A stretch of 64,000 nucleotides of DNA, taken from Engelhardtia mirabilis. Its GTDB lineage: Bacteria; Planctomycetota; UBA1135; GCA-002686595. Position 1 is the first letter of the stretch. Every line of letters starts with the position of its first letter. The notes beneath the pieces were generated by a model. The model searched no databases, had not been told where the DNA came from, and worked only from the letters and a program-made list of their open reading frames with translations. The position numbers were made by a program, and so were the translations under genes. Of the stretch, positions 38,680 to 54,636 are shown in pieces. The stretch is taken from NCBI GenBank assembly GCA_007751255.1, contig CP036296.1, forward strand, positions 6,510,001 to 6,574,000, given 5' to 3'.

Positions 38680-41600
38680 CTACTGGCAGGCGCGCATCTG
38701 CAGACCGGTCGAGTAGCGCACGCCGCCCCAGACCGAGGGGGCGTAGCGGCCCGCCTGCATGAACAACGAGATGCCGGCGAAGGCCGGGATGTCGGGCAGG
38801 GTCACCAACCAGTCCGACTCCCCGGCCGCGTCGAACACCAGGGGTGCCACGGCCGGCGAGGTGGGGTCGACCAACAGCAGCCCGAAGGACAGGGGGATGT
38901 AGGCCGAGGCGGTGGAGATCATCATCAGCCCCACCGCGGTCTCGGGCAGGTCGGCGTCGCTGACCTCCATCAGGATCGGGTAGCCCGGGATCGGAGGCGT
39001 GTTGGCGCGCAGGTCCATGGTCAGCCAGAGCTCGGACGGGCTGCCGTAGCTCGTCCAACCGCAGACGGTCTCGTCGAACCAGGGGCCAAAGGCGCGCAGC
39101 TCGGCCGCGGTCACGAAGGCGTCGGTGCCGCCGGGCGTGCCGCCGATCCGCACCTTGCGCGCAACGACCGGGTCGAAGGCGATCGAGAAGGTCTCGTAGG
39201 AGAGCCCGCCGCCGGGGGTCGGCGCGCCGGGATCCGAGAACAGGCCGGTGACCGGCGTCCAGGGACCGCCGGGGTCGAGTTGGGTGCGCACGTGAAGGTC
39301 CTCGAACCACCCCCCACCGGGGAAGTGCAGGCCCTCCTGGAACAGCAGTGACTCGATCGTCTGGGGCTCGTCGAAGGCGTAGCCGAGCCAGTCCTCGCCG
39401 GCCTGGTCGCCGTTGTGGAAGGTCGAGAACTGGGCCCATTCGCTGGTCGAGCCCACCTGGGGCATGGTCCCGTTGCGCAGGAGCTCCACGTCGGGGTTGC
39501 CGAGGCCGAGGCTGCCGGGCGGGACGAGTTCGTCCACCAAGAGCTCGATCGAGCCGAGGTCCGACAGGTCGCGCCGCTCCAACTGGTAGGCGGCCGAGGT
39601 GATCATCCCGGCGCGCAGCTCGGAGCAGGTGATGTAGCCCAGCGTCCCGCCGGGCGTGCCGCGCAGGCGGATGCCGTCGCCGTACTGGGGTGTGAAGTGG
39701 AAGGTGAAGGTCTCGAAGTCGTCGCCGGGGGCTCCGGCCGGGTACTCGGGCACCGTCACCAGGCCGTCGACCGCGGCCCAGCGGCCGCCGCTCAGGATCT
39801 CGACGTCGACGTCCTCGAACCAACCGCCGCTCGGGTCCGCGGGCCCCTCGGTGAAGGTCAACGAGACGAAGCGCGCGTAGGGCTCGGGGCGCGAGGGGAT
39901 CACCATGCCGATCCAGTCGTCGCCGCCTTGGTCGCCGCCGTGCTCGGTGGAGAAGTAGTCCCCGGACGCCGCCGCGGGCTGGGGCACGACGCCGTCGCGC
40001 ACCACCTCGGTGTCGGGGTTGCCGGCGCCCTGGGGCATGGGCGGGCTGAGCTCGTCGAGGCGCGAGACCAACTGCGCCGTGCCGATCGGATCGAGCAGGG
40101 TGTCGGAGGGGAAGTACCAGGCGCGGTCGGTGACCTTGGCTCCGTCGAGCTTGGTCGCGGTCAACAGCACCTCGTAGAAGACGATCTCGACTCCGCCACC
40201 GTGGGGATCGAGGTTGGCGGTGGTCGAGGTGGCGCTGGGCCCGGTGGTGATGTCGCCGTAGACGTCCGGGTGCACGTGCACGTTGTGGTGCAGGTCCACC
40301 TGCCAGGCGAACTCCAGGTCGCCGCCGCCGGAGTCCGAGCCGATCCCGAACAGATCCAGCGAGGTGGCGTGGGGATCGACAGTGCTCCCGGTGGGCGGCG
40401 AGGTGATCGCCACCTGCGGGGGCACGCTGTCGACCGCGATCAGGACCGACGTCTCGTCGAACAGACCCGACGGATCGGTCACCCGCAGGAGAGCGTTGTA
40501 GATCCCGCTGGCGGTGTAGGTGTGAGAGATCGTCGGCACGCTGGTCTGCTGCTCGGGGCTGCCGTCGTCGAAGTTCCAGGTGTAGGCCAAGGCCTGGCCC
40601 TCGGGGTCGTTCGAGGCGGATGCGTCGAATTGCACCGTGTGCGGCGACGTACCCGTGGCCGCGTCCACCGTCAGCACCGCCGCAGGCGAGAGGTTCTCGC
40701 CGTAGCGCAGGTGCACGATGTGGCCGTCGCCCCAGGTCGTGCCCATGTCCAGGTAGTAGATGTCGCCGCTGATCGGGTGCACGGCGATGTCGACCAGGAG
40801 GTCCACCGCGTTGTTGAAATCGCGCACGGCCACCGGGTTGCCCGCGGCGTCGAGCTCGAGCGTCATCAACTTGTCGCTGGCGTAGTCGCCGAAGAACAAC
40901 AGGCCGTCGTACTCCGGCGGGTAGCTGCCTCCCGGGTAGACCGCGCCGCCGATGGAGCAGGCGCCGACCAGCGAGGTCGTCGGCTGGCCGTCCGTGCCCA
41001 GGAAGATTCCCGCCGGGAAGGTCTGCGCCCCATCGAGGTGGTGCCAGGCCACGATCGGATCGGTGGGGATCCCGACCTTCGGCGAGGTGCAGTCGAGGTA
41101 GCCGAAGGGGTTGGGGTTGACGGGCGGCAGCTCGACGAAGTCCCCGGCCGGCTTGTCGCCCTCGCGGCAGGGCCAGCCGAAGTTGAGGCCCGGGGCGTCG
41201 ACGTAGTTGAGCTCCTCGAAGCGGAAGGAGCCCACGTCGCCGACGATCAAGGTGCCCGGGTCACCCGCGGCCGGGTCCGTGGAGCCGGTGCCGGGCACCA
41301 GGGCGAAGCGGTAGGGATTGCGCAGGCCCAGGGCCCAGATGCGCGAGGGGTTGCTTGTGGGATCGCCGTCGAAGAAGGGGTTGGAGGGCAGCCCCGCCCC
41401 CGTCTCCGGGTCGATCCGCAGCACCTTGCCCGAGAGCGAACGCAGGTCCTGGGCGCGGAAGGCACCGCAGTCCTGTTCCTTCGGCAACTGCCCGCGCAGG
41501 CCCGTGACCGGGTGGATGAAGTCGTCGTAGGCCGGATCGTCGAAGCCGCCCTGGTCGTTGTAGTCGATGTGCGCCCCGTCCCCGTGGCCGATGAAGAGCG

Positions 41601-42204
41601 TCCCGTCGGGGGCGAAGATCAGCGCACAGGATGCGTGGGCCGTGTGGATCGAGGCGAAGGCATCGGGGGAGGAGCCGTCCGCCAGGCGCTCGCCGAGCAG
41701 GTACTGGACCGCCGCCTTGTCGGCGACGATGTTGCCGCCGACCGTGTCGACCGGGTAGCGCACGAGCACGCCGTGGCCGTACTTGTCGTCCGCGTTGTAC
41801 GCGGGATCCGCGCCCAGGGTCGGCGACTCGGTGAAGGCCGCGTAGAGCCAAGCCGTGCTGCCCCCATCGGGGACGAAGCCCGGGTGCAGGGCGAGGCCCA
41901 GGAGGCCGCGCGACGCAGCGTTGTAGACCTCGTCCTGGATGTTCAGGACCGGCGTCGACTGCAGCACCTCGTTCACATAGACGTAGACCCGCCCGCGCTT
42001 CTCGGCCACGAACATGTCGCCCACGGGGCTGAAGGTCAGTTCGACCGGATAGACCAACCCGCCCGGGATGTCCACGCCTTCGAAGGACGGCGGGAACCCG
42101 CCTTCGCCGTCGTGGACGGGAGCCGGACTGAAAGCGCAGTGGCCGATCGGCGCGGCGAGGAGCAAGTGGCCGGACGCAAGGACGGCGCAAAGGATCGAGT
42201 TCAT
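38680..42204 (-). CDS. Secreted PQQ-type sugar dehydrogenase-like/PKD/discoidin-like protein (paralogue 1)
   Basis: 1174 residues with a signal peptide (MNSILCAVLASGHLLLAAPIGHC). Residues about 40-500 form a glucose/sorbosone dehydrogenase-like propeller (FVAEKRGRVYVY, RGLLGLALHPGF, LSGKVLRIDPETGAG, IWALGLRNPYRFAL, FGWPCREGDKP). A PKD domain follows (VQFDASASNDPEGQALAYTWNFDDGS), then two related modules of about 170 residues (WIGMVIPSRPEPYARFVSLTFTEG and WLGYAFDEPQTIESLLFQEG) that look discoidin-like, and a C-terminal domain ending YSTGLQMRACQ. Likely extracellular. Redox activity is unproven. Confidence 0.78.
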   Translation of the reverse strand: MNSILCAVLASGHLLLAAPIGHCAFSPAPVHDGEGGFPPSFEGVDIPGGLVYPVELTFSPVGDMFVAEKRGRVYVYVNEVLQSTPVLNIQDEVYNAASRGLLGLALHPGFVPDGGSTAWLYAAFTESPTLGADPAYNADDKYGHGVLVRYPVDTVGGNIVADKAAVQYLLGERLADGSSPDAFASIHTAHASCALIFAPDGTLFIGHGDGAHIDYNDQGGFDDPAYDDFIHPVTGLRGQLPKEQDCGAFRAQDLRSLSGKVLRIDPETGAGLPSNPFFDGDPTSNPSRIWALGLRNPYRFALVPGTGSTDPAAGDPGTLIVGDVGSFRFEELNYVDAPGLNFGWPCREGDKPAGDFVELPPVNPNPFGYLDCTSPKVGIPTDPIVAWHHLDGAQTFPAGIFLGTDGQPTTSLVGACSIGGAVYPGGSYPPEYDGLLFFGDYASDKLMTLELDAAGNPVAVRDFNNAVDLLVDIAVHPISGDIYYLDMGTTWGDGHIVHLRYGENLSPAAVLTVDAATGTSPHTVQFDASASNDPEGQALAYTWNFDDGSPEQQTSVPTISHTYTASGIYNALLRVTDPSGLFDETSVLIAVDSVPPQVAITSPPTGSTVDPHATSLDLFGIGSDSGGGDLEFAWQVDLHHNVHVHPDVYGDITTGPSATSTTANLDPHGGGVEIVFYEVLLTATKLDGAKVTDRAWYFPSDTLLDPIGTAQLVSRLDELSPPMPQGAGNPDTEVVRDGVVPQPAAASGDYFSTEHGGDQGGDDWIGMVIPSRPEPYARFVSLTFTEGPADPSGGWFEDVDVEILSGGRWAAVDGLVTVPEYPAGAPGDDFETFTFHFTPQYGDGIRLRGTPGGTLGYITCSELRAGMITSAAYQLERRDLSDLGSIELLVDELVPPGSLGLGNPDVELLRNGTMPQVGSTSEWAQFSTFHNGDQAGEDWLGYAFDEPQTIESLLFQEGLHFPGGGWFEDLHVRTQLDPGGPWTPVTGLFSDPGAPTPGGGLSYETFSIAFDPVVARKVRIGGTPGGTDAFVTAAELRAFGPWFDETVCGWTSYGSPSELWLTMDLRANTPPIPGYPILMEVSDADLPETAVGLMMISTASAYIPLSFGLLLVDPTSPAVAPLVFDAAGESDWLVTLPDIPAFAGISLFMQAGRYAPSVWGGVRYSTGLQMRACQ

Positions 42205-42384
42205 GGTTCGAGTGACCTCGTTAGCGAGCGTGACGCCGGAGTTGGCAAGAGCATCGCGGACGGCAATCGGCGTTACGCGCCGGTCCGCGACCCGGGCCTC
42301 GGGGGAGTCGATCCGGTGTCCTGGATCAGAACACTAGCAGGGGTCCCATCGGCTCGGTGGTCGGCCAAATCGGGCGTCCTACCA

Positions 42385-45300
42385 TCACTGGCACACGCCC
42401 ATCTCCAAGGCCGTGGAGAAGCGCACGCCCCCCGGATAGGTCGGTGCGAAGCGACCGCACTGCAGGTAGAGCGAGACGCCTACCAGGGCCAGGTCGTCGG
42501 GGATCGTCGCGAACCAGCTCGCCTGCCCCAGGGCGTCGAAGGACAGGGGTGACAGGTTCGCCAGGGACGGATCGATCAGCAGCAGCGCGCTGCCCAGGTT
42601 GATGCTCGCGGACTGCGCCGCGATCAACATCGCACCGGGCGCCGCCTCCGGTTGCTCGTCGTCCGCGACCTCGATCAGGATCGGATAGCCCGGCAGGGGC
42701 GGGGTCTGGGTCTCGAGCGACATGTGGAGGTGCGGATTCGACAGATCCCCGTAGGCGCTCCAACCGCAGACGGCCTGGTCGAACCAGGGGCCAAAGGCGC
42801 GCAGCTCCGCCGCCGTGACGAACTTGTCCGCGCCCCCGGGGATGCCGAGGATGCGGACGTCGCGCACGATCGTGGGCGCGAACATCAGGTTGAAGGTCTC
42901 GTAGCTCTGGCCGCCCTGGAAGCCGCTGCGGAAGCTGGGATCGATGGACAGCCCGGCCAGGGGCTGCCAGGGGTCGTCCTTGGTCAGCCTGCCTTCGGCG
43001 CGCAGGGTCTCGAACCAACCGCCGTTCGAGAAGTGCAGGCCCTCCTGGAACAGGATCGACTGCAGCGTTTGCGGATCCTCGAAGCGGTAGCCGAGCCAAT
43101 CCTCGCTGCCCTGGTCGCCGCCATGGAACGTGGCGTACTGGGCCCACTCGCTGGCGGAGCCCACCTGGGGCATGGTCCCGTTGCGCAACAGCTCGCGATC
43201 GGGATTACCCAGGCCCAGCGACCCGGAGGGGTTCAGGAAGTCGACCTTGAGCAGCAGTTCGCCGAGATCGGAGAGGTCGCGACGCTCGGTGTCGTAGGCC
43301 GCCGTGGTCAAGAAGCCCACGCGCAGCTCCGAGCAGGTGATGAACCCGTCGACGCCGCCCGGCTTGCCGCGCAGGCGAATGCCCTCGCCGTAGCGCGGCG
43401 TGAAGCTGAACTGGAAGGTCTCGAAGTCCAGGCCCTGGTCGCCCACCGGGTAGGGCGGCGCGACGACCAGGTCCTCGACCGGCGTCCAGGTCCCGCCGCT
43501 CAGGATCTCGACGTCGACGTCCTCGAACCAACCGCCGTTGGTGAAGTTCGGACCCTCGGTGAAGGTCAGCGACACGAAGCGCGCGTAGGGCTCCGGCCGC
43601 GCCGGGATCACCATCCCGATCCAGTCGTCGTCGCCCTGGTCGCCGTTGTGGAAGGTGTCGATCCAATCGCCGACGTGGGTGCCGACGTCGGGGAGCTGCC
43701 CGTCGCGGATCACCTCGAGGTCGGGGTTGCCGAGTCCCAGGGAGACGGGCGGCGACAACTCTCCCAGCCGCGACACGAGCTGGCCGGTGCCGATCGGATC
43801 CAGGAGCTGGTCGGCGGGGTAGTACCACGCGCGATCGGTGGAGCTGGAGCCATCGGACTTCGAAGCCGTCAAGAGCACCTCGTAGAGGATGATCTCGCTG
43901 CCGTTGCCGTGGGGGTCGAGGGGCAGGACCGTGGTGCTCGCGGTGGCGTTCGGCGTGGAGTCGGCGTAGATCGCCGGGTGGACGTGGACGTTGTGGTGCA
44001 GGTCCACCTGCCAACCCAGGTCCACCGGCCCGCCCAGGGAGTCGTTGCCGAAGCCGCTCAGGGTCAACGAGGTCAGGGTCGAGTCGATCGCCGTGCCCGT
44101 CGCGGGGGATGCGATCGACACCGTGGGCGCCAGGCTGTCGACCGCGATGGCCACGGTCGCGAGGTCGAACAGGCCCTGGTCATCGTCGACCCGCACGACC
44201 GGGTGGAAGACGCCGCTCTGGGTGTAGGTGTGCGCGATCGTCGGCACGCTGGTCTGGACCGTAGCGCTGCCGTCGTCGAAGGTCCAGGTGTAGGCCAGGG
44301 GCTGGCCCTCGGGGTCGGTGGAGGCGGAGGCGTCGAACTGGACCGTGTGCGGCGAGGGCCCGCTGGGTGCGTCGACGGTCAGCACCGCCGTCGGCGAGAG
44401 GTTCTGCCCGTAGCGCAGGTGCACCACGTGGCCGCTGGCCCAGTTCGCCCCCATCTGCACCAGGTACAGGTCCCCGGTCACCGGATGGGCCTCGATGTCG
44501 ACCATGCGGTCGTTGGCCACCGAGAAGTCACGCACCTCGATCGGATTGCCGGCGGTGTCGAAGCGCAGGGTCTTGATCCAGTCGCCGGAGTAGTCGCCGA
44601 AGAAGAACAGTCCGTCGTACTCGGCCGGGTAGCTGCCGCCCGGGTAGACCGCGCCGCCGATGATGCAACCGCCGAGCAGTCCCGGCAGTTGGTTGCCGTT
44701 CTCGTCCTTGTAGACCCCGGGCGGGAAGGACTTCCAGTTGTCGAAGTGGTGGTAGCCGATCATCGGATCGGTGGGGATGCCCTGCTGCGGCGTCGAACAC
44801 ACCGGCCAACCGAAGGGGTTGGGGTCGGGAGCCGTGAAGATCTCGTAGCCGCTGTTGGGCTCGTTGCCCTCGCGGCAGGGCCAACCGAAGTTCAGACCCG
44901 GAGTGTCGAGCCACTCGATCTCCTCGAACAGCCCGGCGCCCACGTCGCCGACGAGCAGCGTGCCCGGATCGCCGGCGGACGGGTCCGTCGAGCCCGTCCC
45001 CGGCACCAGGGCCATGCGGAAGGGATTGCGCAGACCCAGGGCCCAGACGCGCGAGGCGTTGCTGGTCGGGTCCCCGTCGAAGAAGGGGTTGCTGGGCAGG
45101 CCCGCGCCGGTGTCGGGGTCGATCCGCAGCACCTTGCCCGACAGGGAGCGCAGGTCCTGGGAGCGAAAGGAGCCGGAGTCCTGCTCGCGCGGGATCTGAC
45201 CGCGCAGGCCGGTCACCGGATGGATCCAATCGTCGAAGCCCGGCGCGTTGACGCCCCCGGGGTCCTTGAAGTTGTGGTGCGCGCCCTCGCCGTGGGAGAC

Positions 45301-45975
45301 CAACAGGCTGCCGTCGGGGGCGAACACCAGCGTGCCCTGGGCGTGCGAGTTGTGCAGCGACGCGAAGGCGTCCGGCGCCGAACCGTCGGGCAGGCGCTCG
45401 CCCAGCAGCGTCTCGCGCGACGCGAGAACGGCGACCAACTTGCCGCTCGAATCGTCCACCCGGTAGCGCGCCAGCACACCGTGGGAGTACTGGTCGTTCT
45501 CGTTGTAGGCCAGGTCCTGGCCGGGCACCGGCGACTCGGTGTAGAGCACGTAGAGCCAAGAGGTGTCGCCCAGGTCGGGCACGAACCCCGGCGAGAGCGC
45601 GATGCCCAGAAGGCCCCGGTCGCCGTCGTTGTTGACGATGTCGCGGATGTCGAGCACCGCCTTGGTCTGCAGCACATCGTTGCGGTAGGCGTAGACCCGG
45701 CCCAGCTTCTCGGCCACGTACATGTCGCCGTTGGGCGCGAAGGTCAGGTCGACCGGGTAGACCAGGTTCCCGGGAATGTCGACGCCCTCGAAGGACGGCG
45801 GGAATCCGCCCTCGCCTTCGTGGGCGGGCCCTGCTGCGGCGGGCAATCCGACGCCCGGTGCCGCGACTGCGGGGACGAGCCTCGAGGGTGCCGACGACGC
45901 CCAGGAGGGTTCGGCGACGGCGGATCCAGCTACGAGAGCCCCAAGGGCCAACGGGGAGAGCGTGCGAGCGAGCAT
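42385..45975 (-). CDS. Secreted PQQ-type sugar dehydrogenase-like/PKD/discoidin-like protein (paralogue 2)
   Basis: 1196 residues from the ATG at 45975, chosen for its signal peptide (MLARTLSPLALGALVAGSAVA). Domain order and most motifs match paralogue 1: HEGEGGFPPSFEGVDIPGN, FVPDLGDTSWLYVLY, LSGKVLRIDPDTGAG, the PKD segment VQFDASASTDPEGQPLAYTW and duplicated WxEDVDVEILSGGxW-type modules. The ending is RFSTALEMGVCQ. The two genes are in tandem, 180 bases apart, and are clearly a gene duplication. TAGGTT at about 46065 (minus strand) is a possible promoter element. Confidence 0.78.
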   Translation of the reverse strand: MLARTLSPLALGALVAGSAVAEPSWASSAPSRLVPAVAAPGVGLPAAAGPAHEGEGGFPPSFEGVDIPGNLVYPVDLTFAPNGDMYVAEKLGRVYAYRNDVLQTKAVLDIRDIVNNDGDRGLLGIALSPGFVPDLGDTSWLYVLYTESPVPGQDLAYNENDQYSHGVLARYRVDDSSGKLVAVLASRETLLGERLPDGSAPDAFASLHNSHAQGTLVFAPDGSLLVSHGEGAHHNFKDPGGVNAPGFDDWIHPVTGLRGQIPREQDSGSFRSQDLRSLSGKVLRIDPDTGAGLPSNPFFDGDPTSNASRVWALGLRNPFRMALVPGTGSTDPSAGDPGTLLVGDVGAGLFEEIEWLDTPGLNFGWPCREGNEPNSGYEIFTAPDPNPFGWPVCSTPQQGIPTDPMIGYHHFDNWKSFPPGVYKDENGNQLPGLLGGCIIGGAVYPGGSYPAEYDGLFFFGDYSGDWIKTLRFDTAGNPIEVRDFSVANDRMVDIEAHPVTGDLYLVQMGANWASGHVVHLRYGQNLSPTAVLTVDAPSGPSPHTVQFDASASTDPEGQPLAYTWTFDDGSATVQTSVPTIAHTYTQSGVFHPVVRVDDDQGLFDLATVAIAVDSLAPTVSIASPATGTAIDSTLTSLTLSGFGNDSLGGPVDLGWQVDLHHNVHVHPAIYADSTPNATASTTVLPLDPHGNGSEIILYEVLLTASKSDGSSSTDRAWYYPADQLLDPIGTGQLVSRLGELSPPVSLGLGNPDLEVIRDGQLPDVGTHVGDWIDTFHNGDQGDDDWIGMVIPARPEPYARFVSLTFTEGPNFTNGGWFEDVDVEILSGGTWTPVEDLVVAPPYPVGDQGLDFETFQFSFTPRYGEGIRLRGKPGGVDGFITCSELRVGFLTTAAYDTERRDLSDLGELLLKVDFLNPSGSLGLGNPDRELLRNGTMPQVGSASEWAQYATFHGGDQGSEDWLGYRFEDPQTLQSILFQEGLHFSNGGWFETLRAEGRLTKDDPWQPLAGLSIDPSFRSGFQGGQSYETFNLMFAPTIVRDVRILGIPGGADKFVTAAELRAFGPWFDQAVCGWSAYGDLSNPHLHMSLETQTPPLPGYPILIEVADDEQPEAAPGAMLIAAQSASINLGSALLLIDPSLANLSPLSFDALGQASWFATIPDDLALVGVSLYLQCGRFAPTYPGGVRFSTALEMGVCQ

Positions 45976-46105
45976 TGGAGAGGGTCGGAGCGCAAGGTCG
46001 GGGTCGAATGGAGGTCCGTTGAAAGCGTCGCTTGGAGGCTCCACGGGTGTGCCTTTCCAAGAAAACCTAGCACCAGATCGCTCCAGCGGCGGTTCGATGA
46101 CGCAA

Positions 46106-46627
46106 TCAGCCGAGCAGGCCCTCGATCCAAGCCTCGACGGCGCCGGGGCTGCGCAGCCGAACGTGCTTCAGGCCGGCCAGACGGGCCTCGTAGCGACGCC
46201 TGCGACCCAGATGGACGCGCCACATGAAGAACAGGATCGAGTCGGTCGGGTGCAGCAGGCGCCACCAGCGCTCGCGGTTGCCGCCACAGACCTGCTCGCC
46301 TGTCCACGCGCGTCGGATCGAGCGCGCCAACAGGCGACGGGTGAGCACCCCCAGGTCGAGGTCGAGCCAGACCACGACGTCGGCCCGGTGCAAGTGCGGC
46401 GCCGAGAGGCTGGCGTAGTTGCCGGTGACCACCCAACGCGGTACCTCGAGCTGCTGGGCCAGGAGCTGCGCCGTCTGCGCCTGGGGTCGCTCACGCCAAC
46501 CGGGCAGCCAGTGCAGCTCGTCGAGGTCGATCCATCGGGCCCCGAGCTGCGGCGCCAGGCGCGCCCCCAGCGTGCTCTTGCCCGACCCGGGCTGACCCAG
46601 GATCCAAAGTCGCTCGGGGGCGCCCAT
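46106..46627 (-). CDS. P-loop kinase-like protein (adenylate kinase/FlaR type)
   Basis: 173 residues. Walker A is GQPGSGKST near residue 11, then WIDLDELHWLPGWRERP, VVTGNYASL, DVVVWLDLDLGVLTRRLLARSIRR and a lid-like basic stretch. This matches the small P-loop NTPases annotated as topology modulation (FlaR-like) or adenylate-kinase-related proteins. A true substrate is unknown. It diverges from the sigma factor gene with only 49 bases between start codons, so their promoters overlap. Confidence 0.75.
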   Translation of the reverse strand: MGAPERLWILGQPGSGKSTLGARLAPQLGARWIDLDELHWLPGWRERPQAQTAQLLAQQLEVPRWVVTGNYASLSAPHLHRADVVVWLDLDLGVLTRRLLARSIRRAWTGEQVCGGNRERWWRLLHPTDSILFFMWRVHLGRRRRYEARLAGLKHVRLRSPGAVEAWIEGLLG

Positions 46628-46636
46628 CGGGGCCAG

Positions 46637-46676
46637 GGTGCCAGGGCACCGATCGGGCCGCTATGCTCCACCCGCC
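46637..46676 (+). promoter_or_regulatory. Promoter with dyad operator upstream of the sigma factor gene
   Basis: A perfect dyad GGTGCC-AG-GGCACC (46637-46650) is followed at 46662-46667 by TATGCT and, nine bases later, the GTG start. The dyad covers where a -35 element would be and also lies just upstream of the divergent kinase gene (start 46627). It could be an operator or the recognition element of an alternative sigma factor. The short leader suggests leaderless translation. Confidence 0.4.
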
Positions 46677-47351
46677 GTGCACAATTCTCGCGATCGGAGT
46701 CGACCGGAGGAGCCGACCTCGACGCATCCGAGCGAGGCTGAAGCCGCGCGCGGCTCCGCCGCGGGTCGAGAACCGCACATCGACCTGGCCCTGGCCCGCG
46801 CCGCCCTCGCGGGCGACGCCGCAGCGCGGCGGGGCTTCGCCGAACGAATGCGCTGTGTCCCGCGCATCCTGACCGCCCGCAATGCCCAGATGGGAGGCCC
46901 CCTGAACGCGGACGACGTGGCCGACCTGGCCCAGGACGCACTGCTGCGCCTGTGGAAGAAGCTCGGAACCTTCGCGGGTCGGTCATCCCTGGAAGCCTGG
47001 GCCTATGGCTTCTGCTCCCTCGAGCTGATGAACGAGCTTCGGCGGGCCCAGCGACGGCCGCGGGGCCTGCCGGTGGAAGCGGGTGCCGAGGTCGAGCCGG
47101 CCGCTCCGAGCGTGGACCTGGACGCCGGGCTGATGCGCGAAGAGGGTGAAGCCTGGCTCGCGAACTTGCCCGAGCGCGAGCGGCAGATCGTTCGACTACG
47201 GCACTTCGAAGGACTCGAGGCGACGCAGATCGCCAGCTCGATCGGGATCTCGGTCTCGAGCGTCAAGACCCACTACTACCGCGCGCTCGAGAAGCTGCGA
47301 CGCTGGATCCCGGACCCCGACGCCCCGAGCGCCGATAAGGAGCGAGGCTGA
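46677..47351 (+). CDS. ECF-type RNA polymerase sigma factor
   Basis: 224 residues from the GTG at 46677; a GTG at 46638 would add 13 residues but would lie upstream of the likely promoter. Region 2 (about 65-125) includes DDVADLAQDALLRLWKKLGTF and WAYGFCSLELMNELRRAQR. Region 4 (about 160-212) includes LPERERQIVRLRHFEGL and IASSIGISVSSVKTHYYRALEKLRR. There is no region 3 insert, as in ECF sigmas. The stop overlaps the next start by one base (TGATG). It probably directs RNA polymerase to a small regulon, held in check by the next gene product. Confidence 0.9.
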   Translation: MHNSRDRSRPEEPTSTHPSEAEAARGSAAGREPHIDLALARAALAGDAAARRGFAERMRCVPRILTARNAQMGGPLNADDVADLAQDALLRLWKKLGTFAGRSSLEAWAYGFCSLELMNELRRAQRRPRGLPVEAGAEVEPAAPSVDLDAGLMREEGEAWLANLPERERQIVRLRHFEGLEATQIASSIGISVSSVKTHYYRALEKLRRWIPDPDAPSADKERG

Positions 47352-48052
47352 TGGCCGACGACCCCCGAGATGACGAGCTGATCGACCGTGCCGAGCGGCT
47401 CTGGGAGGGCGCGGACGATGCGGAGCTGGCCGAGTTGCGTGGCGTCCAGGAGCGCTTGGAGGCCGACGGCGCAGCGGCCCGCGAGGCATTCGCGCGCCAG
47501 GCCCTCGCGAGCGGGCCGGTGGAACACGAGGACGACGCCATCGCCGCCCTCTTGGAGGCGATGGAGGGCTCGACGCCGATCGACGCCAGTGCGCGCGGCG
47601 CGGCGCCCGAGCAACCCTGGCGCGCCCCGGGCGGCCCGATGCTCTCGTGGTGGTGGATCGCCGGCGCGGTAGCGGCGGTCGTGCTCGCCGTGCTGGCGCC
47701 GACCTTCTTCCCGGAGGGCAGCGGCGTCGGCGAAGGCCTGATGCTCGATCAGGGCGCCGTCGACCGCCAGTTCGCACCGGTCGGCGAGGTCGAGACGATC
47801 GACGCCTTCACCTGGCGCGGCGGACCACCGGTCGGGCTCACCCATCAGGTCAGGGTCTGGCTCGCGCCCCGGCCCTCGGGCCCGCCCGACATCGTCGCCG
47901 AGGTCTACGATGCGCCGCGATGGGAGCCCGACGCGGAGCAACTGGCCCGGATCAACGGGGCGCCGGCGGGAATCTGGTGGGAGGTGGCGGAGATCGATCC
48001 GGTCAGCCTCGACGAGGTCGTCATCGGCTCGGCGGCGTCGCGCTCGCGCTGA
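47351..48052 (+). CDS. Single-pass membrane protein, candidate anti-sigma factor
   Basis: 233 residues, overlapping the sigma gene by one base. The acidic N-terminal part (DDELIDRAERLWEGADDAE, then LRGVQERLEADGAAAREAFARQAL) resembles the cytoplasmic helix pair at the start of planctomycete FecR-like regulators. It has no HxxxCxxC zinc motif. One membrane span lies at residues 98-120 (MLSWWWIAGAVAAVVLAVL). The C-terminal 110 residues would be extracytoplasmic (HQVRVWLAPRPSG, WWEVAEIDPVSLDEVVIG). Anti-sigma function is inferred from position and topology. Confidence 0.6.
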   Translation: MADDPRDDELIDRAERLWEGADDAELAELRGVQERLEADGAAAREAFARQALASGPVEHEDDAIAALLEAMEGSTPIDASARGAAPEQPWRAPGGPMLSWWWIAGAVAAVVLAVLAPTFFPEGSGVGEGLMLDQGAVDRQFAPVGEVETIDAFTWRGGPPVGLTHQVRVWLAPRPSGPPDIVAEVYDAPRWEPDAEQLARINGAPAGIWWEVAEIDPVSLDEVVIGSAASRSR

Positions 48053-50490
48053 ACCTGCTCGCGCTGCTGCTCCCAGTTGCGCCCCTGTGGGCGGCGCCGG
48101 GCGCTACGCCAGCGGCGGTCCGACAGCAGCGCGCGACGGTCCGGGCCACGGAGCTGCTGGCGCGTCTGCGACCGGAGGAGTCGGACGCCGCAACCGAGGC
48201 CTCCGAGTTGATCGCCGAACTGGAGCGGGCCCTGCAAGGGGATCCGAGCGCCGGGCTGGTGGGCTCGCCGGTCGAGTTGGCCTGGGCCTTCGCCCGCTTG
48301 GTGGGCGCGGTCGCCCTCGATCACCCCTCGGCCCTGCCGCAGAGCGACCTCGACCGCCTGCTGGCGCGGGCCGTCGAAGTCACCGTCGACGATCCTGCCA
48401 CCCACGCGTGGGTCGCGGGGGTTCGCATCGAACTGCTGCTCCGGCGCGAGCGCTGGGCGGCGGTCCTGGAGATCGGTTGGCCCCTCTTGGACGACGAGCA
48501 GGTGGACCCGACCTACCGCGCGCCGATCGCGGTCGGAGTGGCCGTCGCGGCGCGCGCCGCGGGCTCGCTGGCCGAGGCCGACCGCGCCTGCGAGCGGGCC
48601 GCGGAGCTGCTCGCCGAGCGCCCGGGCAGCCTGCCGCAGCTCGAGCTCAGCCTGGGGCTCCAACGCTGCGCCATCGCGCGGCTGCGGGGTTTGATGGACG
48701 TTTCCGCGCGGCACTGGGCAGCGTTGGCGTTGATCGCCGCGGATTCGGGCGATGCGGGCTTGCTGGCCCAGGTCGCCGAGGAGCGGGCCAACTTCCTGCT
48801 CGCCGCACAGCAGCACGACCGGCTCGATGACCACGTACGGGCCTTGCTCGAGCAGCCTGACACGGCGCAGTTCCCAGCCACTGCGAGCGCCCTGCGCCTG
48901 GTACAGGCGATCAGCCTCGGCGTCCGCGGCGCGCAGGACTCCGACTCGCAGGAGCGGTCCATGGCGCTGCTGGTGCAAGTGGAGGAGGACCCCGCCACAC
49001 GGCCCACCGATCGCCGCCTGGCACGCCTGCGCCTGGCGACGGCCCAGGCCCGGCAAGGTCGTCTGGACCTCGCCACGCGCAGCCTCGAGTCGGTTCGAGC
49101 CAGTGCGGACGGCCCCCTGCCGCGCTCGGACGAGGCCCAATGCGCGCGGCTCGAGGCTCACCTGGGCCGACGCCTGGCCACGTCGCCGGCGGAACTGTTG
49201 GGCGTGCTCGAGCGGACCGACGCCGCCTTCGATCGCTTCCTGGAAGCCCTCACATCGGACCCCCCACGACCCGGAGGCCTGGGCTTCCTGCAGTTCGAGG
49301 AGCACCGTGGCTTCGTCGGCGAGCTGATCGAGCTGCTGCTCGCGGTCCACGGACCCGAGCGTGGCGCCGACCTGGCCCTGGACCGGATTCACCGGCTGCA
49401 GGCGACGGGATCGCGCGCGCGACTGGCGGGCTACGTCCCGGGTACGGTCGAGGAGCTGCGCGGCACCCTGTTGGCCGAGGGGCAGGGGCAGTTGATCTAC
49501 CTGCCCACGGCCGTGCAGACCCACCTCTTGACCGTCGATGCCGCCGGCACGCGGCACCACCGCTTGCCGCCGATCGGGCGCTTGCACGAGCTGCGTGCTC
49601 GCTTCCAACAGGCCTTCGCCCCCGATCGAGCGGCGCGGGCCTGGACGGCGCAAGCCGCGCGTCTGCGCGAGGCCTTGTTGCCGCAGGACGCCCTGGAGCG
49701 GTTGCTCGAATGGCGTGCTGTGACGGTGATCGGACTCGACCTGGTGCGCTACGTGCCCTTCGAGCTGCTGCCGCTCGAGGGCGGCGAGCTGCTCGGCGAG
49801 GTCCTCGACCTGGGCTATCTGCCGTCACTCTCCACCGGGATGCGTCTGGCGCGCCGCCCGGCCCGGCCGGACCGCGGCGGCCGCCTGGCCCTGGTCGTGG
49901 CGCCGACCTTCGACGATCCGCTGCTCGAAGCGATCCCCCTGGACGACGCGGTGCTCGAGCGACTCCTCGGCGGCGCGACGGACCCACTGGTCCTGTCCGC
50001 CGACGAGGCCGGTCTCGCGGGCCTCGCAGCCGCGGAGCTCGAGCAACGGGACCTCCTGACGATCGTCACCCACGGCCGCTTCGACCGATTGCGCGAGCTC
50101 TCGAGCGGCCTGGCACTCGCCGCCGGCCCCGACGGCCCGTCGACCCTGTGGCCCGAGGACGTGCCGACCATCGCGCCCTTGCCGCCGGTGGTCGTGGTCG
50201 CCGCCTGCAAGGCCGCCCGCAGCGCCGCGCGCATGGGCGAGGGCGGCCTCGACGGCTTGATCGGTGCCCTGATCGACGGGGGCGCGAGTTGCGTCGTGGT
50301 CGCCCACGAAGACGTGGAGTACGCGGCGCTGCTCGAGCTGCTCGAGGTCCTACAGCCGCGGCTCCTGACGGGCGAGGTCAGCGTCGCCCGAGCCCTGGCC
50401 GAGGCCCAGCAGGCACTGCGAGCGCGGCGACCGGAGACTCCGGCCGCCGCACTCCTGCACGCCTACGGGCTGGTCCATCGCGTCCGCTGA
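47977..50490 (+). CDS. CHAT-domain peptidase with helical (TPR-like) N-terminal region
   Basis: About 837 residues if the GTG at 47977 is used; a CTG at 48049 that overlaps the upstream stop (CTGA) is an alternative. The N-terminus has a signal-like segment (ALALNLLALLLPVAPLWAA). Residues about 40-530 are TPR-like helices. The C-terminal CHAT (caspase-like) domain has H699 in LLTIVTHGRFD and C744 in VVVVAACKAARSA, so the catalytic dyad is intact, followed by GLIGALIDGGASCVVVAHEDV. CHAT proteases cleave partner proteins after a trigger. The gene is tightly linked to the sigma factor and membrane protein, suggesting regulated proteolysis. Confidence 0.85.
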   Translation: MGGGGDRSGQPRRGRHRLGGVALALNLLALLLPVAPLWAAPGATPAAVRQQRATVRATELLARLRPEESDAATEASELIAELERALQGDPSAGLVGSPVELAWAFARLVGAVALDHPSALPQSDLDRLLARAVEVTVDDPATHAWVAGVRIELLLRRERWAAVLEIGWPLLDDEQVDPTYRAPIAVGVAVAARAAGSLAEADRACERAAELLAERPGSLPQLELSLGLQRCAIARLRGLMDVSARHWAALALIAADSGDAGLLAQVAEERANFLLAAQQHDRLDDHVRALLEQPDTAQFPATASALRLVQAISLGVRGAQDSDSQERSMALLVQVEEDPATRPTDRRLARLRLATAQARQGRLDLATRSLESVRASADGPLPRSDEAQCARLEAHLGRRLATSPAELLGVLERTDAAFDRFLEALTSDPPRPGGLGFLQFEEHRGFVGELIELLLAVHGPERGADLALDRIHRLQATGSRARLAGYVPGTVEELRGTLLAEGQGQLIYLPTAVQTHLLTVDAAGTRHHRLPPIGRLHELRARFQQAFAPDRAARAWTAQAARLREALLPQDALERLLEWRAVTVIGLDLVRYVPFELLPLEGGELLGEVLDLGYLPSLSTGMRLARRPARPDRGGRLALVVAPTFDDPLLEAIPLDDAVLERLLGGATDPLVLSADEAGLAGLAAAELEQRDLLTIVTHGRFDRLRELSSGLALAAGPDGPSTLWPEDVPTIAPLPPVVVVAACKAARSAARMGEGGLDGLIGALIDGGASCVVVAHEDVEYAALLELLEVLQPRLLTGEVSVARALAEAQQALRARRPETPAAALLHAYGLVHRVR

Positions 50491-50509: not shown

Positions 50510-52759
50510 TCACGGGCAGTCGCAGGGCGTACCCAGGCCGATCGGCTGGGGCGTCGGCCCGACGTCCTCGGTCAGGCACAGGCCGAACTCCGGCGGCGGA
50601 GCGCCGCCGCTGAAGAGGTAGGCCAGCATGAAGATCGCATCCGCGATGTTGATCGGTCCGTCGTTGTTGATGTCCGCCGCCGCTGGGCACGGAAGGCTCG
50701 GTGATCCGGGCACGAACAGGGCGTTCAACAGGTACGACGGGTCCGAGATGTCGAAGCACCCGTCCGCGTTGACGTCGCCGCGCCGGAAGGCGATGAACTC
50801 GTCGGCGCCGCGGTCGGCACCCGTGCTGGTCCCGAGGATGAAGCGATCGATCACCCGCGGGTGGAAGTCGAGATCGACGCCCAGGAACAGGGTGATGCCA
50901 TCCTCGGCCTCATCGATCACCGGACTGAATCCGTCGGCCAGGTGGTAGTCGGACGGCAACAGCAGCGGAGCCGCGTCGTCATTCGCGACCCCGATCAAGT
51001 CGGCGCTGCCTGGGGGCACGACCAGGGTCATCTGCGTGAAGCGCAGGTCGTCGACCACGCCGGGTTCGCCGAACCAGTTGTCATCGTTGCCTTCGACTCC
51101 CGCGATGCGGTTGTGGAAGATGATGTTGCTGGAGCCGTCGAAGCGAGTGGGCGCGGTGAAGTGAACCCCCGAACCATCGCCCGCCGCGCCCGTGACGTCG
51201 TTCCAGGCCAGCGTGTTATGGAACAGCTCCCCGGTGACCGGCGGCGTGAACGTCGAGGGGTTGTCGAGGTAGAAGCCGCCCCCAGCGTCGGGAACCGTGT
51301 TGCGAATCGCCGCATTGCCGAACAGGCTGACTCGGTCGCTGTCGTCGTTGCGCTCCACGTCGCAGTAGAGGCCTCCACCGACGTCGTCGACGACGCTCGT
51401 GGTGAAGCCCGGGTTGGCGACGGTGTTGTCCAGGAGTCGATTGTCGAACAGGGTCGCGCTGATGCTGTTGTCCGGGAAGGGCACCGTGGCCACACCACCG
51501 GGAGCCGGCGACGTGGTCGACGAGTGGGCGAAGAAGCCCCCGACGACGATCGGTCCTTCACCCCCGTGATCGATCAGGCCGCCGCTCGAGCTACGCGCGC
51601 GGATCCAGACGCCTCCGCCCCGGTAGGCCTCGTCGATGGAGATGCCCTTGGGGTTGTCGCTGGGCGACCAGGACTCGTTGGCTGCGGAGATGTTCTGCTG
51701 CAGGTGCCCCTGGGAATGGCCGCCGTTGGTGAACAGCTCGATCCAGACCCCGCCCCCCTCCTCGGCGGCGTTGTGGTGCACGTAGTTGCCACACAGCTGG
51801 GCCAGCTCGACGAAACCTCCGCCGGTCAGGGTCGCGGCGACGCCGCCGCCCTGGCGCGGGGGCTCGGGCTCGAGGAACAGCATCTGCTCGCCGAAGTCGT
51901 TGCCGTGCACGATGTTCGCCACGTAGTCCACGCAACCACGCAACTGGTGGACGCCGCCACCACGCAGGGGGTTGCCGGCGTAGTTCCCGAACGCGCCGGC
52001 CGTGTTGCCCTCGATCTCGTTCAGCGCCACGACTCCCTGGGAGACGTCGCGCAGGTAGATGCCGCCGCCTGTCTCGCGCGCCGCGTTGCCGGTGACCACG
52101 TTGCCGACGATGTCCAGGCGACTGCCGTAGCCGGGCACGTGGATGCCTCCACCATCCTCGACCGTCAACAGGATGTTGTCGGCCACGCCGCCGGTGATCG
52201 TGAAGCCGTGCCAACCCTCGTAGTCGGCGGGCGGCAGGAGGTCATCGACCCCCGCCCCCGGATCCAGGGACGCGGTCGCCAACCCGATCCGCAGGGGCCC
52301 GCCGCTGAAGGAGAAGTTGTCCACGTAGATCGCCGGCTGAACGCCGCCGCCGTCGATCGTGGCCGTGTCGGGCCCCCACTTCGATACCAGCGTGAGGCCG
52401 AAGGGGAAGGAGTCGGAGTAGATGATCAGTGGGTCGTAGACCTCGACGACACCCGGGGCGGGCTCGAGGTCGGGGCCGACTTCGATGACCCAGTGCTCGG
52501 TCTGAGGGAAGGGCGGGAACAGGGCCAGCTCCTCGATCTTGCCCTGGAGTTCGTAGCCGCCGCCGGCGACTCGAAACTTGGTGAAGCCACCCAGGTCGCA
52601 GGTGGAGGCGGCCAGGTCGCAACCGGTCAAGTACTCGGACGGCTGCGCGGCGAGGAGATCGTTGACGCACTCCTGGGCGGTGACGCTCGCTGCTGCGAGG
52701 CCCAGTGTGGATGCAGTCAACAGCGAACGGCGGACGAGGCTTCGAGGTGAACAGTACAT
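50510..52759 (-). CDS. Secreted parallel beta-helix protein with dockerin-like tail
   Basis: 749 residues from the ATG at 52759, with a signal peptide (RRSLLTASTLGLAAASVTAQ). Residues about 200-600 show right-handed beta-helix repeats (GGGIHVPGYGSRLDIVGNVV, ETGGGIYLRDVSQGVVALNEI, HNAAEEGGGVWIELF). The C-terminus has a paired EF-hand, dockerin-like segment (DVNADGCFDISDPSYLLNAL, then DINNDGPINIADAIFMLAYL). Such proteins are common in planctomycetes and may bind surface polysaccharides; no cohesin is visible here. The gene converges with the CHAT gene with 19 bases between. Confidence 0.8.
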   Translation of the reverse strand: MYCSPRSLVRRSLLTASTLGLAAASVTAQECVNDLLAAQPSEYLTGCDLAASTCDLGGFTKFRVAGGGYELQGKIEELALFPPFPQTEHWVIEVGPDLEPAPGVVEVYDPLIIYSDSFPFGLTLVSKWGPDTATIDGGGVQPAIYVDNFSFSGGPLRIGLATASLDPGAGVDDLLPPADYEGWHGFTITGGVADNILLTVEDGGGIHVPGYGSRLDIVGNVVTGNAARETGGGIYLRDVSQGVVALNEIEGNTAGAFGNYAGNPLRGGGVHQLRGCVDYVANIVHGNDFGEQMLFLEPEPPRQGGGVAATLTGGGFVELAQLCGNYVHHNAAEEGGGVWIELFTNGGHSQGHLQQNISAANESWSPSDNPKGISIDEAYRGGGVWIRARSSSGGLIDHGGEGPIVVGGFFAHSSTTSPAPGGVATVPFPDNSISATLFDNRLLDNTVANPGFTTSVVDDVGGGLYCDVERNDDSDRVSLFGNAAIRNTVPDAGGGFYLDNPSTFTPPVTGELFHNTLAWNDVTGAAGDGSGVHFTAPTRFDGSSNIIFHNRIAGVEGNDDNWFGEPGVVDDLRFTQMTLVVPPGSADLIGVANDDAAPLLLPSDYHLADGFSPVIDEAEDGITLFLGVDLDFHPRVIDRFILGTSTGADRGADEFIAFRRGDVNADGCFDISDPSYLLNALFVPGSPSLPCPAAADINNDGPINIADAIFMLAYLFSGGAPPPEFGLCLTEDVGPTPQPIGLGTPCDCP

Positions 52760-52874
52760 GGTTTCGAATCGGTGGAAGAACGGGGTCTCGGCGGTCGCCC
52801 GGGTGACGGACGACGGACGAGGGCGTCGATGGCGCGACGTTCGGCCGACAGCGATTCCAAAACTCGACCTCGAC

Positions 52875-52915
52875 GCGCAGCGGGCGCGCCCCCGATGGGG
52901 GCGCGCCCGCTGCGC
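52875..52915 (-). terminator. Strong hairpin terminator
   Basis: A perfect 19-bp GC-rich stem (52875-52893 with 52897-52915) with a GAT loop lies 20 bases beyond the stop of the minus-strand FG-GAP gene. It is the strongest small hairpin in the window. Confidence 0.75.
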
Positions 52916-52935
52916 GATCGACGAGCGTCCGAGGC

Positions 52936-54636
52936 TCAGGGGTTGACCGGCGTCGGATCCGGCGGCGCGGGGGGCGGCGGCGGCGGCGGCACGCGCGGCA
53001 CGGGTCCGGTGCCCGACGAGCCGACCGTCGAGGCGCCGAAGGACGGTGCTGGCCCGCCCCACAGCGTGCTACCGGGCAGGGACTGGAACGCGACCGAGGT
53101 GAAGTAGCTCGCCGCGACCACGGACATCCCGGCGGGCAGTAGCTCGCCCGTGGTCGAATCCGCCAGGCAGAACTCGGCGTACCACACGGGGTGTTCGGCG
53201 GCGCCGATCTGCAGGTCGTACTGCAACTGCAAGGGCCAGGAGTTCGCCGGGACCGTGACTTCGATGGAGGGCGTCGGCGCCACTCGCGACAGGCCTTCGC
53301 TCGGCCGGTGCCACAACCTCAACAGCACCTCGTCGCCACCCGCGCTGACCGCCGGGGGGTCGAACTCCAGCTGCACCCGATAGTCGCCGGACCCACCCAG
53401 GGCCCACGCACCGCTGCCCCCTGGGTCGAGCATGGGCGCTCGATTCGAAGCCTCGACGCCGTCGCCTCGTTCGATCACGAACTCGGCTCTGTCGGTGTCC
53501 GAGCGAAACTCGATCAGATCGGCGTCGCCATCATTGTCGAGGTCGACCACTGCCGCCCCGGCGGCCAAGGCAGTCTGGATCGGCGCGAATCCGACCGGCG
53601 TCGCGACCAGCCGCAGCGACCCGCCGCCGGCAACCGAGTAGCGAGGCGCCGAGGCCCCCGTGGTCGTCGCACGCAGCAGGTACAGGGCCCCCTCAGCGCT
53701 GTCCACGAAGGCCAGGTCGGCGCGTCCGTCCCCGTCGAGGTCGCCGCTGTCCATGGCCAGCACCTGGTCGACGGCCGGATCGGCGTCCGCGCGGATGAAG
53801 CCCTGGCCCACGGTCCACAACTCGGCTCCGCCCGCGGGCTGGGCCAGCCATGCGAGCTGCTCGCCGGTCGTCCCTTGGTCCACCAACACCGCCAGCGCGT
53901 CCGGCGCGACGGAGGCGACGCCGCGGGGGTAGTCGGCCACCACGAGGCCCAGGTAATTCCTGATCCGCAGACCGAAGTCGCCCACGGCGGCAAGCTCGGC
54001 GAGTCCGTCCCCATCGAGGTCGACGGCGGCGATTGCGTTGGCCCACTCCGGCAGATTGAAGCCGGGCATGGCGGCGAAGAAGTTGCCCGACCCGCCCAAG
54101 AAGATCAGCGGCACCACCGTACGCAGGTCCTCCTTCAGGCCGTAGGCGATGCGGTAGTTGCTCGGCACCGGGTTGCCGACGGCGACCCGTGAGTAGGCCT
54201 CGCCGGGGGCGGTGATCCCGGTCGGCAGCAAGGCGTCGACGGTCGCGCTCCAGCGCCAGTGGAGGATGCCCCCGGTGCCCGCGGAGAGCAGCGCATCGCC
54301 CGGGCCGCTCGAAGCCAGCAAGGCCATGTCGGCCACATGCTCGGAGCCTCCGCCCGTCAGTTCGTACAGCGTCGTTCGCCCCTGTCGCGTACCGACCGAG
54401 TCGACCAGGAAGGCCCGCCCCTCACTGGTGCGAGCCACGGCGTCGACCCGGCCGTCGGAGTCGAAGTCTCCAGCCAGCAGCTCCACGGCCGACTCATGAC
54501 CTCCGTGGACGCCCTCCCAGTCCGTGACCGGGTCCGGGCTGAACTTTGCGGGAAAGGACTGGGTCGCGGCCGATGAGCCGACGAGGACCACGGCCACCGA
54601 GGCGGCCCACAGGGACGGGAGGTGTTGGGGCTTCAT
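52936..54636 (-). CDS. Secreted FG-GAP/VCBS-repeat protein
   Basis: 566 residues from the ATG at 54636, with a signal peptide (WAASVAVVLVGSSAATQ). FG-GAP-like blades with calcium loops recur: LLAGDFDSDGRVDAVART, AIAAVDLDGDGLAELAAVGDF, MDSGDLDGDGRADLAFVDS and AVVDLDNDGDADLIEF. The C-terminus is Pro-rich (PRVPPPPPPPAPPDP). Integrin-like propellers of this kind are extracellular binding proteins; the ligand is unknown. It is divergent from glnS. Confidence 0.8.
   Translation of the reverse strand: MKPQHLPSLWAASVAVVLVGSSAATQSFPAKFSPDPVTDWEGVHGGHESAVELLAGDFDSDGRVDAVARTSEGRAFLVDSVGTRQGRTTLYELTGGGSEHVADMALLASSGPGDALLSAGTGGILHWRWSATVDALLPTGITAPGEAYSRVAVGNPVPSNYRIAYGLKEDLRTVVPLIFLGGSGNFFAAMPGFNLPEWANAIAAVDLDGDGLAELAAVGDFGLRIRNYLGLVVADYPRGVASVAPDALAVLVDQGTTGEQLAWLAQPAGGAELWTVGQGFIRADADPAVDQVLAMDSGDLDGDGRADLAFVDSAEGALYLLRATTTGASAPRYSVAGGGSLRLVATPVGFAPIQTALAAGAAVVDLDNDGDADLIEFRSDTDRAEFVIERGDGVEASNRAPMLDPGGSGAWALGGSGDYRVQLEFDPPAVSAGGDEVLLRLWHRPSEGLSRVAPTPSIEVTVPANSWPLQLQYDLQIGAAEHPVWYAEFCLADSTTGELLPAGMSVVAASYFTSVAFQSLPGSTLWGGPAPSFGASTVGSSGTGPVPRVPPPPPPPAPPDPTPVNP

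Follow-up and report, generated by a model that had tools for sequence, protein, structure and literature searches.

The genome of the planctomycete Engelhardtia mirabilis (GenBank assembly GCA_007751255.1) contains, on contig CP036296.1, three overlapping genes for an extracytoplasmic function (ECF) sigma factor, a protein with one membrane span, and a peptidase that joins tetratricopeptide repeats to a CHAT domain (TPR-CHAT). They lie in a stretch of 64,000 nucleotides (positions 6,510,001 to 6,574,000 of the forward strand), hereafter called the window, whose own numbering is used throughout. The head-to-tail overlap, put forward in a preliminary description based on the DNA letters, was confirmed over positions 46638–50490 of the plus strand. 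They form one copy of a gene module that recurs in bacteria and couples a sigma/anti-sigma transcription switch to a predicted exported caspase-like protease and a secreted propeller protein; the module probably lets an extracellular signal control gene expression. The operon comprises the following features:

46677–47351, plus strand: ECF sigma factor gene (frame open from GTG 46638; GTG 46677 is favoured, the start being unsettled)
47351–48052, plus strand: predicted anti-sigma factor gene (ATG 47351; 233 amino acids)
about 47351–47650, plus strand: its predicted cytoplasmic N-domain
about 47654–47710, plus strand: its membrane span
about 47770–48049, plus strand: its FN3/Ig-like ectodomain
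47920–50490, plus strand: gene for a predicted exported TPR-CHAT cysteine peptidase (probable ATG 47920; alternative GTG 47977)
about 48037–48093, plus strand: core of its signal peptide
about 49651–50424, plus strand: its CHAT domain
50071–50073, plus strand: catalytic His codon, invariant (H622 in alignment row 1)
50206–50208, plus strand: catalytic Cys codon, invariant (C667 in alignment row 1)

The identity of the first gene as an ECF sigma factor was borne out by matches to Sigma70_r2 (34 bits), Sigma70_r4_2 (52 bits) and TIGR02937 (89 bits), all above their cut-offs, with regions 2 and 4 both matched above the Pfam threshold. The ATG of the middle gene uses the final base of the sigma stop codon. 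For the third gene, the CHAT profile PF12770 scored 69 bits against a cut-off of 24; with the domain, a His–Cys dyad and the modelled fold all present, its product belongs to the CHAT peptidases. The dyad was earlier given as His699/Cys744; it is intact, and this numbering is right for GTG 47977, whereas the probable ATG 47920 yields His718/Cys763. All 40 aligned rows keep both residues, at a mean column identity of 27%. Over 95 CHAT frames, His was present in 92 and Cys in 90; the missing cases are gaps where a contig end truncates the frame.

Gene order across the phylum

The window CHAT protein, searched against 61 genomes, matched in 26; 68 stretches were fetched, giving a near set of 69 CHAT frames of the window kind (window included) from the same genome and its relatives. 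Among the 64 CHAT genes with upstream sequence, 62 are directly preceded on the same strand by a sigma gene and a middle gene. The other seven frames comprise five that reach contig ends (loci L055, L059, L068, L111 and L112) and two without an adjacent sigma gene, namely L084 and one member of the tandem CHAT pair in L091. Given the 95 sigma region 4 matches in the E. mirabilis genome, a hand calculation predicts a same-strand sigma gene no more than 1.2 kb upstream for about 0.8% of genes; the sigma-first order is thus beyond chance. Sixty of the 62 triples are of the exported type described below, while L046 and L047 are of a soluble type.

A profile built from 60 middle proteins was then searched against a 246-genome sample of the phylum and matched in 82 genomes. 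All 30 strong rows (E <1e-20) outside the genomes already used were fetched as a distant set. Here, sigma lies upstream of the anti-sigma gene in 29/29 loci not cut on that side, and CHAT lies downstream in 27/29. Modules occur in ten families (f1, f2, f6, f8, f24, f27, f41, f47, f54 and f71). The search for this gene order across planctomycetes, proposed along with the preliminary description, thus found it kept far beyond close relatives.

The overlap between the anti-sigma and CHAT genes, roughly 90–150 nucleotides long, recurs in the window (47920–48052) and its relatives; with the ATG 47920 start it measures 133 nucleotides. CHAT keeps the same relative frame to the middle gene in 56 of the 60 exported-type modules, the middle-gene stop reads CTGA or CTAG in 53 of the 60, and in many of the junctions inspected this stop sits inside the CHAT signal peptide's hydrophobic stretch. 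A Trp codon is found 86–150 nucleotides ahead of the middle-gene stop in 54 of those 56 modules (where there were several, the first closely followed by Pro was chosen, or otherwise the first). The base preceding this TGG is A in 23 of the 54 genes, compared with 8.3% of third bases and 25 of 288 other Trp codons. Because an A at this position gives CHAT an in-frame ATG, a start codon is likely to be under selection here, and the CHAT start of the family is probably the NTG that overlaps the Trp codon. In L064, L074 and L093, a start codon is lacking from 150 nucleotides before the middle-gene stop to the hydrophobic stretch.

Several loci depart from the standard arrangement. The tandem CHAT pair of L091 (2827–10561, minus strand) follows a single sigma/anti-sigma pair and is accompanied by two FG-GAP genes. 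In E. mirabilis itself, one frame of L177 (6989–7909, minus strand) combines a match to the N-terminal part of the sigma profile with a following match to the anti-sigma span and ectodomain, and is either a deletion remnant or a sigma–anti-sigma fusion; in L113, also from this genome, a protein close after a sigma region 4 match fits the ectodomain part alone of the anti-sigma profile. Large opposite-strand genes stand upstream of sigma in L052, L058, L069, L070, L078 and L094; these genes fall in a single cluster that spans 11 loci, and some of them carry CxxCH-like motifs.

The FG-GAP partner

FG-GAP genes were first spotted in L114 and L118, and all-versus-all clustering of neighbouring proteins followed. 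The dominant cluster consists of FG-GAP proteins from 39 loci, encoded on the opposite strand directly after CHAT. At least 1 kb of downstream sequence was available for 53 exported-type modules, and 51 of them have an FG-GAP gene within 2.5 kb downstream, convergent in 50; L097 and L110 are the exceptions. In the distant families, FG-GAP is present in 24/24 modules free of contig cuts, although in L163 and L171 it lies on the other side of the operon. Counted from the opposite direction, the FG-GAP family has 43 members (E <1e-20) in five whole genomes; 41 of them are no more than 3 kb from a CHAT gene of the window kind, and 38 of these 41 are convergent. In the same genomes, 41 of 45 CHAT rows have an FG-GAP neighbour, versus about 0.4 expected (45 of the 47 strong rows were used, the omitted two being second pieces of the same frames). 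The FG-GAP gene therefore belongs to the module as a dedicated partner of CHAT. In the window, two features lie beyond the operon on this side:

52936–54636, minus strand: secreted FG-GAP propeller gene, fourth module member (profile E 3e-105; FG-GAP_3 54 bits)
50510–53062, minus strand: beta-helix/dockerin frame between CHAT and FG-GAP (true start inside the frame)

A start and a signal peptide were identified for the window FG-GAP protein. Its gene lies 2.4 kb from CHAT, with the beta-helix/dockerin gene between them, rather than in the usual directly convergent position; the intervening gene is probably outside the module. On the other side, the divergent P-loop kinase that was earlier said to share the promoter region is present (46106–46627, minus strand), but it is not conserved: no kinase was found among the neighbour clusters of at least four loci. 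Beyond it, positions 38680–46044 (minus strand) encode two adjoining large proteins that look alike in translation, the second with glucose/sorbosone dehydrogenase and PKD domains (Pfam).

Topology of the anti-sigma factor and the CHAT protein

The middle protein of the window has a single membrane span at residues ~102–120, supported by an alignment of 62 sequences. Lys and Arg number 229 before the span and 95 after it in 60 middle proteins, and because this excess precedes the span, the N-domain is predicted to lie inside and the C-terminal part outside. In models, the latter folds into an FN3/Ig-like sandwich whose similarity scores do not rise above noise. When the family profile was compared with all PDB chains, the top match was 3hug_B (positions 8–68, E 0.0029), which we take to be the anti-sigma factor RslA with sigma-L. 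The 246-genome search also yielded 102 further, weaker rows, mostly limited to the N-domain and span. Twenty of these loci were inspected (L130–L148 and L179): a sigma gene was nearby in 18, and none was close in L131 and L136. Ten loci with long frames, one of them identical with L133, were also inspected, and each has a sigma gene nearby. Of ten weaker-row proteins scanned against Pfam, five matched zf-HC2 or RseA_N (L137 slightly under the cut-offs) and four matched FecR. A CxxC with an upstream His is kept in 17 of the 60 middle proteins. By the N-domain homology of the family profile, and not by the window sequence alone, the middle protein is classed as an anti-sigma factor. The FecR-like acidic N-terminus ascribed to it earlier proved half right: the N-terminus is acidic (24 Asp/Glu versus 9 Lys/Arg in 95 residues), but the FecR domain (PF04773) is absent from the window protein in Pfam and from the families listed for 60 members.

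An export signal on the CHAT protein is, with the FG-GAP gene, one of two features that the preliminary description overlooked. The rule applied here asks for a hydrophobic stretch and, after it, an AxA-like or lipobox motif; such a signal is present at the N-terminus of 55 of the 60 exported-type members, whereas the soluble-type CHATs of L046 and L047, used as a control, fail the rule. A C-terminal hydrophobic segment with a basic tail was found in 57 of 89 CHAT frames, near and far, with an uncut C-terminus (L070, L072, L096 and L163 miss this rule but look similar); the window copy has no such anchor. The CHAT family is accordingly classed as exported on these signals, and since it often adds a C-terminal anchor, it would act outside, unlike Craspase.

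The soluble type occurs in E. mirabilis itself (G000:C1, near 4.93 Mb for L046 and 6.07 Mb for L047). Both loci have the order sigma–X–CHAT, in which X and CHAT lack a clear span or export signal, and the X protein of L046 has a CxxC near its N-terminus. The candidates for a Craspase-like switch that works in the cytoplasm without CRISPR are these two loci and not the one in the window.

The proposed switch and related systems

Gene order, homology, topology signals, the intact dyad, the dedicated FG-GAP gene and domain-resolved co-variation form the observed basis of an interpretation. For the last of these, distance matrices were compared across 50 complete modules, drawn from 22 genomes, while controlling for the sigma or CHAT matrix (14 and 13 partial tests, uncorrected). 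The anti-sigma N-domain tracks sigma (partial r 0.31) and not CHAT (0.07), whereas the ectodomain tracks CHAT (0.29) and FG-GAP (0.41); the two parts of the anti-sigma factor do not track each other (−0.01). The second distance measure broadly agrees (N-domain/sigma 0.25, ectodomain/TPR 0.36, ectodomain/FG-GAP 0.39). This co-variation gives indirect support for contacts between the proteins.

We infer from this basis a sigma switch that responds to an extracytoplasmic signal, in which CHAT most likely cuts the anti-sigma ectodomain; we regard the odds on this reading as even. The sigma factor would be held in the cytoplasm by the N-domain of the one-span anti-sigma factor, while the anti-sigma ectodomain, the TPR-CHAT protein and the FG-GAP propeller, all outside the inner membrane, would jointly receive the signal. 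Once triggered, CHAT would most likely cut the ectodomain or the juxtamembrane linker in a site-1 role, after which an M50 site-2 protease and cytoplasmic proteases could complete degradation and release the sigma factor; the genome has four M50 protease frames. Cutting the anti-sigma factor is the simplest role for CHAT because an exported peptidase with an intact dyad adjoins a membrane anti-sigma factor. A more specific version, which we hold tentatively, is that the FG-GAP propeller gates an exported separase- and Csx29-like caspase serving as the site-1 protease, in parallel paralogous channels that work without CRISPR. E. mirabilis has four exported-type modules, and the CHAT matches in genome G255 fill 24 rows, of which some are weak or split; several modules per genome suggest parallel channels for different signals.

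A number of results weigh against this reading. The window anti-sigma copy matches no Pfam family significantly (best E 0.12), and it lacks the CxxC zinc motif that would make it a zinc-binding anti-sigma (ZAS) protein. The sigma/anti-sigma pairs of L157 and L170 have no CHAT match in about 7 kb downstream. L082, L085, L096, L103 and L110 fail the signal-peptide rule, although L082 and L096 appear signal-like by eye. The five genomes used for the FG-GAP count were picked for CHAT richness, and the FG-GAP association was favoured because the profile was built from CHAT-adjacent genes; moreover, the operon and the FG-GAP gene share no common promoter motif. As for co-variation, the second measure gives weak N-domain/CHAT (0.18) and N-domain/ectodomain (0.14) values, the whole-protein FG-GAP/sigma correlation is no higher than the permutation maximum, and physical linkage alone could explain part of the signal. 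That FG-GAP tracks the ectodomain at least as well as it tracks the intervening CHAT speaks, however, against linkage as the sole cause.

Co-variation also bears on what CHAT does. Ectodomain co-variation is stronger with the TPR part (0.34; 0.36 by the second measure) than with the CHAT domain (0.18; 0.26), as expected if the switch were the same but TPR-CHAT served as a sensor or a scaffold, holding or releasing the ectodomain without cutting, in the manner of a split DdvA, an anti-sigma factor with TPR-CHAT inside it. The invariance of His and Cys amid otherwise divergent columns suggests instead that catalysis is kept, and we consider this alternative unlikely, if still a serious one. FG-GAP, for its part, is a dedicated neighbour that co-varies with CHAT (0.26 and 0.28), which would suit a scheme in which sigma drives its own operon and CHAT processes FG-GAP or other surface proteins as outputs; autoregulation is common among ECF factors, according to an excerpt of PMC10028731. 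FG-GAP co-varies at least equally with the anti-sigma ectodomain, however, no promoter motif is shared, and the DdvA regulator itself contains TPR-CHAT, so we judge it improbable. The earlier proposal of a stand-alone three-role switch was right that sigma, anti-sigma and CHAT belong together, as their conserved order attests, but a cytoplasmic, Craspase-like working without CRISPR is highly improbable for a family with a signal peptide and C-terminal anchor.

Among known systems, the closest in structure is DdvA, a transmembrane anti-sigma factor that was the best Foldseek match of the CHAT model (PDB 8rot, 8rw5) and carries His and Cys at the dyad positions. In DdvS/DdvA, TPR-CHAT lies within the anti-sigma polypeptide (991 residues), whereas the window and the 62 triples encode the parts as separate genes; the anti-sigma factor of the module has its own FN3-like ectodomain, CHAT is predicted to be exported separately, and a dedicated FG-GAP partner is present. 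Because DdvA is the closest solved structure, the module resembles a DdvA that has been split and given a propeller protein.

Membrane anti-sigma factors beside a sigma gene are also found in the RseA/DegS/RseP and RsiW systems, which an excerpt of PMC10028731 names and whose outside proteolysis serves as the model here; in the module, the putative site-1 protease is an operon-encoded caspase-like CHAT enzyme rather than DegS. The zf-HC2/RseA_N and FecR-type proteins found beside sigma genes in the phylum match the module in N-domain and span, but the module protein has an FN3-like ectodomain, no FecR domain, and a CxxC in 17/60 members, with none in the window. ECF54 sigma factors, as presented in part of PMC8999054, have CHAT, subtilase and carboxypeptidase genes in their genetic context; proteolytic control is proposed there, and the group, with an example from Geodermatophilus, is described without an anti-sigma factor. 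Compared with that description alone, the anti-sigma gene of the window module argues against ECF54 membership.

The likeness to Craspase (type III-E) is that a CHAT peptidase, a sigma inhibitor and an ECF-like sigma factor share one locus, and an excerpt of PMC10028731 shows that the CHAT protease of the RNA-guided Craspase complex relieves a sigma inhibitor. The suggested resemblance to Csx29 holds in that the model of the window CHAT aligns to it; the suggested absence of CRISPR agrees with the lack of any cas1 (PF01867) match in the genome, Cas7-11 itself not having been searched for. Csx29, however, works in an RNA-guided effector complex, whereas in the module CHAT is predicted to be exported, the inhibitor spans the membrane and a propeller protein serves as partner. 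We read the module as a sigma/anti-sigma switch with an extracytoplasmic TPR-CHAT, split into genes and joined by a dedicated FG-GAP protein. If the proposed switch is correct, the set of proteins that free sigma factors from outside the membrane would come to include a caspase-fold protease, the exported CHAT and FG-GAP families would gain a testable function, and DdvA and Craspase would be linked as two forms of CHAT control over a sigma inhibitor.

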